56,314 nt of DNA. It comes from Halanaerobium congolense (lineage in GTDB: Bacteria > Bacillota > Halanaerobiia > Halanaerobiales > Halanaerobiaceae). Numbering within the stretch: position 1 is the stretch's first letter; every line of letters begins with the position of its first letter. This document shows, piece after piece, positions 7,185-50,859 of this stretch. Where the stretch lies: NCBI RefSeq assembly GCF_004366375.1, contig NZ_SOEF01000021.1, forward strand, positions 1-56,314. Direction: 5' to 3'. The position numbers were made by a program, and so were the translations under genes. The notes below the pieces were generated by a model. It made no database searches. It was not told where the DNA came from and worked only from the letters and a program-made list of their open reading frames with translations.

Positions 7185-7940
7185 ATGATTAAAGGGCTCT
7201 ACACAGCAGCTTCCAGTATGGGAGTTTTAGAAAAAAAGTCTAATATTCGTGCTAACAATCTGGCAAACTCAAACACCACTGGTTTTAAAAAGAGCGGAAC
7301 TGTAACAAGTTCTTTTCCAGAAATGCTTTTAGAGCGAATTGAAGCTGGTAGAAATAGTGAGGAAATTGGTGAAATTTCCACAGGAGCTTTTCTGGAGAGA
7401 AGCTTTAAAGATATGCGTCAGGGTGATCTGCAGCGAACAAATAATAAGCTTGACCTTGCGATTCAGGGAGAAGGATTTTTTACAATTGAAACTGAGGCCG
7501 GTATTCGCTACAGCCGTGACGGCAACTTTACTATTAATAATAACTCGGAACTGGTAACGCAGTCAGGAAATCCCGTTCTTGATATTAATGGAGAAAGAAT
7601 TCAGTTAATAGCTGATGAAGACTTTAGCATTGATCAAAATGGTGTTCTTCGTTTTAATAATGGTCTTCAAGGAAGCCAGATTGCTCTGGTTAATTTTGAA
7701 AATTCTGCAGAATTAATTCAGCAGGGAGATAATCTTTACCTGGAAGTTGAAGAAAGTAACGGATCTATTGCTTCAGAAGCAGTTTTAGCTCAGGGTTATC
7801 TCGAAACATCTAATGTTAAAATTGTAGAAGAGATGGTACAGATGATTAAAACAAGCAGGCATTATGAATCAAATCAAAAGGTAATAACAACTATGGATGA
7901 GAGTTTATCAAAGGTAATTAATGAAGTTGGTAAGGCTTAG
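7185..7940 (+). CDS. flgF: Flagellar rod protein, FlgF-like (FlhO type)
   Basis: A 251-residue axial protein of the FlgE/F/G family. The N-terminal heptad region carries the family signature ANNLANSNTTGFKKS. The C-terminal helix ends with SNVKIVEEMVQMIKTSRHYESNQKVI, also characteristic of the family (cited from about residue 206). It is the first of two such genes and the less typical one, so FlgF (proximal rod) is preferred over FlgG. AGGAGGTGAG precedes the ATG. The protein is exported by the flagellar apparatus and has no Sec signal. Confidence 0.9.
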   Translation: MIKGLYTAASSMGVLEKKSNIRANNLANSNTTGFKKSGTVTSSFPEMLLERIEAGRNSEEIGEISTGAFLERSFKDMRQGDLQRTNNKLDLAIQGEGFFTIETEAGIRYSRDGNFTINNNSELVTQSGNPVLDINGERIQLIADEDFSIDQNGVLRFNNGLQGSQIALVNFENSAELIQQGDNLYLEVEESNGSIASEAVLAQGYLETSNVKIVEEMVQMIKTSRHYESNQKVITTMDESLSKVINEVGKA

Positions 7941-7993
7941 GCTTTTAATAAGAGACTTTTATTATATTTAGTATTAAGATTTAGTTATAAATT

Positions 7994-8070
7994 TTGATTT
8001 AGAAATCAGCCGGACCTGTAAAGGAAGCTGAGAAACTGCTGTTGACTGATAGATACGGCAGATAAATCAA
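7994..8070 (+). ncRNA. Candidate structured RNA leader (three-way junction) before flgG
   Basis: The 158-base gap between the two rod genes contains three mutually compatible helices. P1 is TTGATTTA (7994-8001) with TAAATCAA (8063-8070). P2 is TCAGC (8006-8010) with GCTGA (8027-8031), plus an inner CCT/AGG closing a GTAA tetraloop at 8018-8021. P3 is CTGCTGT (8036-8042) with ACGGCAG (8055-8061, one G-U). Together they give a closed three-way junction 28 bases upstream of the flgG ribosome site. I do not recognise a known riboswitch class, and it does not fit the c-di-GMP-I or c-di-GMP-II consensus. Seen directly: the pairings. Inferred: that the RNA folds and regulates. Confidence 0.45.
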
Positions 8071-8107
8071 TATTTATAGAAAAATAAAAATTTATGGAGT
8101 GATCAAA

Positions 8108-8896
8108 ATGATTAGTGCTTTATGGACATCTGCTACAGGGATGAATTCTCAGCAGACAAATATTGATGTCATTTCTAATAATCTGGCCAATGTTAACACA
8201 AGTGGATTTAAAAAGTCCAAAATTAATTTTGCTGATTTAATTTATACAAATATGAGAGATGCCGGAACACCTAATGCTCAGGGAGCTGAAGTTCCAACTG
8301 GAATAGAAATAGGACATGGTTCAAAAGTAAATAGTACCCAGAAAATTTTTACCCAGGGTAATATTCAAAATACTGACAGCCCTTTGGATATGATAATTGA
8401 GGGAGATGGATTTTTTAGAATCCAGCTTCCTAATGGTAATTTTGCTTATACAAGAGATGGTTCATTTAAGATGGACAGTAATGGTGATATTGTTACTGCT
8501 GATGGCTACTATCTTGATCCTCAGATCAATATTCCAAGGGAGGCAACAAGCATATCTATTACTTCAGATGGTACAGTAAGTTATAAACCTGATGACTCAG
8601 ATCAGATGATGGAAGCTGGGCAGATTCAGCTTTATAACTTTTCTAATCCAGCTGGTTTGGCAAGTGAAGGACGCAATCTTTATTCTATGACTACTGCATC
8701 TGGAATGCCCAATCAGTCAGCTCCAGGAACTAATGGAACCGGAACAATTACTCAGGGCTTTTTAGAAATGTCTAATGTGAAAGTTGTAGAAGAAATGGTA
8801 AATATGATCGCTGCTCAGAGAGCATATGAGACTAACTCAAAAGCGATTCAGGCTTCAGATGAAATGCTGCAGACAGCTAATCAACTTAAACGCTAA
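8108..8896 (+). CDS. flgG: Flagellar distal rod protein FlgG
   Basis: A 262-residue distal-rod protein. It carries the family N-terminus (TSATGMNSQQTNIDVISNNL) and the NVNTSGFKKS motif. The FlgG-specific region around residues 40-80 (ADLIYTNMRDAGTPNAQGAE) and the C-terminal SNVKVVEEMVNMIAAQRAYE motif are also present. I chose the ATG at 8108, 8 bases after GGAG (8096-8099). The GTG at 8099 overlaps that ribosome site and is unlikely. Good length and motif match to FlgG. Confidence 0.96.
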   Translation: MISALWTSATGMNSQQTNIDVISNNLANVNTSGFKKSKINFADLIYTNMRDAGTPNAQGAEVPTGIEIGHGSKVNSTQKIFTQGNIQNTDSPLDMIIEGDGFFRIQLPNGNFAYTRDGSFKMDSNGDIVTADGYYLDPQINIPREATSISITSDGTVSYKPDDSDQMMEAGQIQLYNFSNPAGLASEGRNLYSMTTASGMPNQSAPGTNGTGTITQGFLEMSNVKVVEEMVNMIAAQRAYETNSKAIQASDEMLQTANQLKR

Positions 8897-50726: not shown

Positions 50727-50742
50727 TACAATTTAATAAATG

Positions 50743-50830
50743 AAACAGGGGAGCCCTTGGGCTGAGATAAAGCAGATGCTTTAACCCTTAGAACCTGATC
50801 TGGATAATACCAGCGAAGGGAGTTGTGGGG
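50743..50830 (+). ncRNA. TPP riboswitch (THI element) of thiC operon
   Basis: A canonical thiamine-pyrophosphate aptamer: GGGGAGCCC, GGGCTGAGAT, a P3 extension (AAAGCAGATGCTTT), then CCCTTAGAACCTGATCTGG (P3 and diphosphate site), ATAATACCAGCG and AAGGGA. It closely matches the Rfam-type consensus, better than the copy before thiT. Confidence 0.97.
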
Positions 50831-50859
50831 AGTGATTATTAATATGATTACTTTATTTT

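Follow-up and report, generated by a model that had tools for sequence, protein, structure and literature searches.

The gap in front of flgG in Halanaerobium congolense (contig NZ_SOEF01000021.1; the whole 56,314-nucleotide stretch analysed is called the window below) probably holds a copy of an uncatalogued class of cis-regulatory RNA that would tune the translation of flgE and flgG and would be bound, most likely, by a protein of the TIGR02530 family, a reading to which we assign a probability of roughly 0.6. The conserved object is a pair of adjacent hairpins, H1 and H2, which related DNA from other genomes of the genus narrowed to positions 8006–8061 of the window and which measures about 52–56 nt. 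Specifically, H1 contains an internal loop of consensus YGGA that faces two purines, and H2, directly after it, consists of a stem of about seven pairs and a 12-nt loop of the form N-GA-NY-GA-NN-GA-N, with its three GA dinucleotides at fixed spacing.

All features of the locus lie on the forward strand. The upstream gene is flgF (7185..7940; an open reading frame with the Pfam domains Flg_bbr_C and Flg_bb_rod), which encodes a rod protein, and the gene that carries the element in its leader is flgG (8108..8896, also assigned from its open reading frame and Pfam domains), which encodes the distal rod protein. The gap reported in front of flgG by an initial annotation of this DNA is indeed there, running from the flgF stop at 7940 to the flgG start, which we place at 8108 in agreement with relatives (the longest open reading frame starts at 8099). 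Within it, the R1 model matches 8006–8061 with 67 bits. Hairpin H1 (8006..8031) comprises an outer stem (8006–8010/8027–8031), the internal loop CGGA at 8011–8014 facing AA at 8025–8026, an inner stem (8015–8017/8022–8024) and a GUAA terminal loop (8018–8021), and hairpin H2 (8036..8061) comprises a 7-bp stem (8036–8042/8055–8061) and the 12-nt loop UGACUGAUAGAU (8043–8054). An optional outer helix can form between 7994..8001 and 8063..8070, and the flgG Shine-Dalgarno sequence, GGAG at 8096..8099, lies 34 nt 3′ of H2. The helices of 8, 5+3 and 7 bp that had been noted at the outset are present in the sequence and are all contained in the minimum-free-energy fold of 7980–8090, whose −26.3 kcal/mol was equalled by none of 200 shuffles (mean −13.6, z −4.15). 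No terminator was found in the flgF–flgG gap, and a promoter there was rejected, as shuffled sequences give 2.0 ± 1.4 promoter-like matches and the gap gives 3.

With respect to conservation, the covariance model was started from nine sequences whose H1 has the same length, a first MAFFT alignment (A1) having misplaced the 3′ arm of H1, and a broader model was then made from 58 sequences. In two alignments that were both fitted with the model, which favours it, and that are anchored by the invariant loops, the pairing holds throughout: the first (58 sequences) has 97.3% of its cells paired, 11 of 13 pairs changed on both sides and a covariation score of 0.668, against 0.255 ± 0.015 when shuffled and at most 0.183 with slid partners, and the second (84 distinct sequences) has 96.3% paired, 11 of 13 pairs with compensatory changes and a score of 0.601. 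Covariation is seen in H1 and, with compensatory changes at all seven pairs, in the stem of H2 in both alignments; U–G pairs in the H2 stem suggest that the RNA corresponds to the coding strand. Orthologous gaps without conserved pairing or compensatory changes had been named beforehand as the outcome that would tell against a structured RNA, and what both sets contain is kept pairing with many such changes. As to their makeup, alignment A5 omits four flgE copies with a shortened H2 loop (L126–L129), a weak match (L145), L027 and duplicate loci, and alignment A6 comprises 85 loci, namely the 25 best-ranked and 60 hand-picked from the listed matches.

The loops are conserved still more strictly. 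Among 141 elements found by the model, a set that leaves outside it copies with other loop lengths (L126–L129, L245 and several of L255–L262), the GGA of H1 is kept in 140, 141 and 141, position by position, and the six H2 loop bases are kept in 138 (G2), 141 (A3), 141 (G6), 141 (A7), 141 (G10) and 140 (A11). Kink-turns and k-loops are built from tandem sheared G–A pairs beside a 3-nt bulge; the H2 loop has GA near both of its ends, compatible with tandem G–A pairs, yet its middle GA is invariant as well. Other parts of the originally proposed architecture are not conserved. Junction-adjacent runs of at least 8 pairs occur in 3 of the 141 elements, where shuffles predict 2.7, and shorter runs show a slight excess (mean 4.21 versus 3.89), so that the outer 8-bp helix, although seen in the fold of the window, is kept no more than chance would have it and a conserved three-way junction is rejected. 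The GTAA tetraloop that had been pointed out is present in H1 of the window, but a GNRA loop is not conserved in the alignment. In five flgE copies from the window's genus (L245 and L126–L129), H2 has a 5-nt loop, CGAUA or CGACU, instead of one of 12 nt.

The RNA is widespread in, and largely confined to, flagellates. In 30 of the 95 sources searched, which include duplicate copies of one locus, the nine-sequence covariance model matched upstream of flgG with E values under 1e-5. The sample drawn from the phylum of the window, Bacillota or a subdivision of it in GTDB, comprised 299 genomes; 195 of them matched at E ≤ 0.001, that is, 195 of the 253 with FlgE/F/G-type proteins, termed flagellates here, and none of the 46 without them. 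Outside this sample, 39 genomes were reached via other flgG loci and scored at E ≤ 0.01; 7 carry the RNA (four of Sporomusa/Negativicutes type, two Riflebacteria and one unclassified bacterium), and the proteobacterial, spirochaete, nitrospirote and acidobacterial genomes among the 39 gave no match at that threshold. Weaker copies were found without filters in Mitsuokella and in an Armatimonadota MAG of the same set.

The position of the element is as constant as its loops. By an automatic rule, 136 of the 141 elements directly precede flgE, the hook gene (69), or flgG, the distal rod gene (67), with median distances from H2 to the start codon of 32 and 35 nt; genes were labelled by N-terminal rules in place of BLAST labels (41 flgG, 40 flgE, 4 none), which confuse the paralogues FlgE and FlgG. 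Inspection by eye places three of the remaining five before flgG (L021, L026) or flgE (L197), and two differ: at L159 the contig ends after TIGR02530, and L230 is an orphan. An earlier examined set agrees, the element standing just before flgE or flgG at 44 of 45 loci (45 of 46 matches, L110 being omitted as near-identical to L109). The RNA is not restricted to flgG, in whose leader it was first noted, but also precedes flgE, including as a second copy in the same genome. The flgE copy of the window's own genome (L245, G000:C34:20747–20795) is on another contig, scores 33 bits and has the shortened H2 loop. Copy numbers given in part of the text of PMC5288503 are about 6 each for FlgB, FlgC and FlgF, about 26 for FlgG and about 130 for FlgE, with its authors arguing for about 42 FlgG; the RNA marks FlgG and FlgE, the two rod/hook subunits needed in bulk.

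This gene context bears on two rival explanations. If the RNA belonged to the upstream gene or were a remnant, it would not be a leader of flgE or flgG at all, as the orphan L230, which follows flgF with no flgG, might suggest; we regard this as highly improbable, because the gene upstream varies (TIGR02530, flgF or flgD) and, with very few exceptions among the loci examined, flgE or flgG follows. Alternatively, the hairpins could be a processing or stability element that marks where the polycistronic flagellar mRNA is cut or protected and so raises the yield of flgE and flgG with no switch involved. The marked genes are high-copy rod and hook genes, and the element begins at the upstream stop codon in flgE copies (median −1 nt), both of which would suit such a role. 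A generic stabiliser, however, needs a stem but neither an invariant GGA and three GA dinucleotides nor a partner gene, and we consider this explanation unlikely.

Several copies depart from the common arrangement. The orphan (L230, 1493–1545 on the reverse strand) is followed by what looks by eye like a terminator hairpin, and its genome (G093) has three RNA matches. Two genomes, including that of Sporomusa malonica, have a third copy (L243 and L244, 1501–1556), placed between an upstream gene that by eye resembles flgD, not TIGR02530, and a second paralogue of flgE downstream. In the Riflebacteria and the unclassified bacterium (L236–L238), 171–180 nt separate the element from the flgE start, some 140 nt more than usual, and the TIGR02530-like gene in front of the element falls just short of the family's cut-off score.

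The indication of a partner comes from gene content. TIGR02530 (flg_new) is an uncharacterised family of proteins of roughly 130 residues whose gene lies immediately 5′ of flgE; at the flgE loci of alignment A7, which keeps 66 of 78 loci tried after filters on C-terminal pattern, length and duplication, PF12611 is matched by all 66 genes that precede the RNA, and TIGR02530 by 3 of the 3 scanned. The family is present in 194 of the 195 RNA-positive genomes and in 18 of the 58 RNA-negative flagellates (Fisher 2.7e-31, a test that, like the other Fisher value given here, treats related genomes as independent), where presence means E ≤ 1e-5 and covers 212 genomes, 206 of them above the curated cut-off. 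When 8 of the 18 discordant genomes were opened, the RNA was found right after TIGR02530 in all 8, at 17–34 bits; a relaxed rescan matched 16 of the 18 at E ≤ 0.073, and G197, found by opening its locus, brings the number to 17. With relaxed filters included, 211 of 212 TIGR02530 genomes carry an RNA match; by listed coordinates, 13 of the 17 relaxed matches adjoin TIGR02530, FlbD or a FlgG-type gene, and those of G231, G265, G077 and G272 are counted without position. The exceptions are G321 (84% complete), which is RNA-positive and lacks TIGR02530, and G248, which has TIGR02530 and no RNA match.

Flagellates that lack TIGR02530, laboratory Bacillus subtilis among the control genomes having no match to the family either, were examined as well. 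Unfiltered scans revealed no RNA above 12.9 bits in 20 of their flgE regions, in 12 of which the rule located the flgE start, and none above 4.2 bits in 4 of their flgG regions, with the flgG start located in 1; 5 of 40 such genomes have weak, unopened matches at E 0.07–0.35. Each of the families f24, f42, f52, f40 and f74 includes genomes having both RNA and TIGR02530 and genomes having neither. In the outside set, TIGR02530 occurs in 7 of 7 RNA-positive genomes versus 2 of the 32 others (Fisher 2.3e-6; the matches in G358, G360 and G364 are below the curated cut-off), and a scan without filters found the RNA in those two genomes too. FlbD, the neighbour of flgE on the other side, served as a control and shows no such association (145 of 195 versus 44 of 58, p 0.87).

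Linkage explains part of this co-occurrence for the flgE copy and does not readily do so for the flgG copy. Where both are on one contig, the flgG copy is 17–18 kb from TIGR02530–flgE, which argues against linkage alone, but just 4 flgG regions of TIGR02530-less genomes were scanned. Taken together, the co-occurrence points to TIGR02530 as a likely protein partner of the RNA. In low-scoring TIGR02530 genomes (L255–L262), H1 is mostly well kept and the H2 loop is variable, which suggests that H1 may be the essential recognition part.

A different RNA-binding protein, CsrA, also had to be weighed, because CsrA binds GGA, as it does in the leader of flagellin hag, and an invariant GGA is what H1 offers. 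CsrA is present in 164 of the 195 RNA-positive genomes; the other 31, however, have no match, and the family, which served as a second control, shows no link to the RNA within the flagellates, its frequency in RNA-negative ones being 45 of 58 (p 0.24). CsrA sites moreover prefer apical hairpin loops, whereas the GGA of H1 sits in an internal loop. For want of an association and of an apical GGA, a CsrA-controlled leader was rejected as scarcely credible.

In terms of how translation might be reached, the flgE leaders offer a lead. The sequence GAGGUC occurs in 30 of the 43 leaders whose H1 carries GACCUC and in 3 of the 26 without it (p 3.6e-6, relatedness ignored), and for each of the 5 flgE leaders examined from the window's genus, the best fold includes a helix of 9–10 bp between H1 and the Shine-Dalgarno sequence. 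The ensemble probability of pairing between the Shine-Dalgarno sequence and the H1 arm, by comparison, exceeds 0.5 in only 9 of 66 flgE leaders. No such signal was found in flgG leaders, where 102 of 500 permutations reach the observed value.

This alternative pairing, together with the dense invariant loop positions and covarying stems, would also suit a ligand-binding riboswitch, in which H1 docks alongside H2 and a small molecule bound by them controls both genes. We judge this decidedly unlikely. Just flgE and flgG were found marked in a large operon, the near-perfect co-occurrence with one protein family would be unexpected for a metabolite, and no Rfam riboswitch model matches. That the flgG leader holds a structured RNA outside the known families, both c-di-GMP classes included, had been claimed from the outset and is upheld by Rfam 15, which has no match to window positions 7900–8150 at E ≤ 10. 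Likewise, Rfam gave no element match at E ≤ 1 at loci L070, L050, L033, L021, L026 and L019, and none of 26 weak matches at E ≤ 10 at L232, L119 and L160 overlaps an element. The c-di-GMP-I and c-di-GMP-II riboswitches are structured leader RNAs of motility genes and share with this RNA compact helices with conserved loops, but they were rejected since their family covariance models do not match the window; the RNA described here is instead two hairpins with no conserved closing helix, placed before flgE and flgG. Termite-flg (RF01729) was rejected as well, its covariance model matching neither positions 7900–8150 of the window nor the elements at nine other loci tested. Termite-flg and flg-Rhizobiales (RF01736), the nearest RNAs with a name, are presented in part of PMC2864571 as candidate structured RNAs, from the termite hind gut and Rhizobiales, respectively; although named after flagellar genes, they are other models with other hosts, and no Rfam match links them to the elements.

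For TIGR02530, the probable partner, an AF2 model (pLDDT 81.9, pTM 0.61) begins with an N-terminal stretch of low confidence that lacks secondary structure, followed by a helix that starts at residue 35 and then by two helices and four strands. Structure comparison returned mostly RelE, ParE, HigB, YafQ and YoeB chains in ranks 1–19 (Z 6.0–4.5, 63–76 residues, rmsd 3.1–4.2 Å), where even the best Z, 6.0, is too low to establish a fold. The likeness to the RelE/ParE/HigB superfamily is thus weak and below reliable thresholds, and TIGR02530 differs from it in the long low-confidence N-terminus and in a gene setting in which no toxin–antitoxin context is seen. DUF4258 matches weakly (36 of 66 proteins at E ≤ 1, best 0.0071), Foldseek found no match to the model at E ≤ 0.001, and a profile search of PDB sequences returned only designed proteins. 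The C-terminal domain has a median net charge of +2 and so no strongly basic character; this and the weak fold match count against the proposed reading. All 66 proteins of alignment A7 carry F-x-x-x-[LF], with the F at median residue 37 (range 28–57). In part of the text of PMC8983047, the gate recognition motif of FlgD, FLTLL at residues 36–40, is described as docking early subunits on the export gate, and the resemblance of the TIGR02530 motif suggests a putative export signal. A literature search found no functional paper on TIGR02530.

The comparisons above establish the RNA class, its structure, its gene context and its co-occurrence with TIGR02530; from them we infer binding by that protein, control at the level of translation and its direction, and export, and we propose the following mechanism. 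In most flagellates of the phylum, the RNA would form part of the mRNA immediately 5′ of flgE and flgG and would tune translation of the two bulk rod and hook subunits. TIGR02530 would recognise the GGA internal loop of H1, with the GA loop of H2 as an aid. The 5′ arm of H1 could, in flgE leaders, pair instead with the Shine-Dalgarno sequence, so that formation of H1 and access of the ribosome may be alternatives; in flgG leaders without this pairing signal, the switch may differ or may act via ribosome blocking. The protein could be an activator or a repressor, and its putative export motif raises the thought that it is perhaps a repressor removed by export. More specifically, TIGR02530 might be an exported RNA-binding regulator with a RelE-like domain that holds the flgG and flgE mRNAs until the export gate works, whereupon export through FxxxL would release synthesis; this version is tentative and, on balance, unlikely. 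FlgM is an exported anti-sigma factor, and if TIGR02530 were exported, both would couple gene expression to export, with the difference that FlgM acts on sigma-28 and TIGR02530 would act on the RNA of two subunits. Were the exported-regulator version true, TIGR02530 would be a translational counterpart of FlgM in most flagellates of the phylum.

As to its kind, the RNA would be a protein-responsive leader, in keeping with a conserved structure located 5′ of the candidate regulated genes and presumed from that position to be transcribed. A parallel is the hag mRNA leader of flagellin, controlled by CsrA–FliW, which like the candidate here is a protein-responsive leader of an exported flagellar subunit but differs in the genes, in the position of the motif and in the involvement of CsrA, which is not associated with this RNA. 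Post-transcriptional tuning of hook protein synthesis is an old question; Lee and Hughes reportedly addressed it in 2006 for Salmonella FlgE. Literature searches, including PMC11109978 and PMC6429828, found no earlier description of this RNA, its gene pair and its partner, and nothing on flgE leaders was found in passages of PMC4534456. Because the RNA is present in about three quarters of the sampled flagellates without an Rfam 15 match, a great many genomes probably carry it without annotation. The RNA and a named, unstudied protein family together supply both halves of a directly testable candidate mechanism. Elsewhere in the window, a TPP riboswitch at 50737–50838 (+) is the sole Rfam family that reaches its gathering score.
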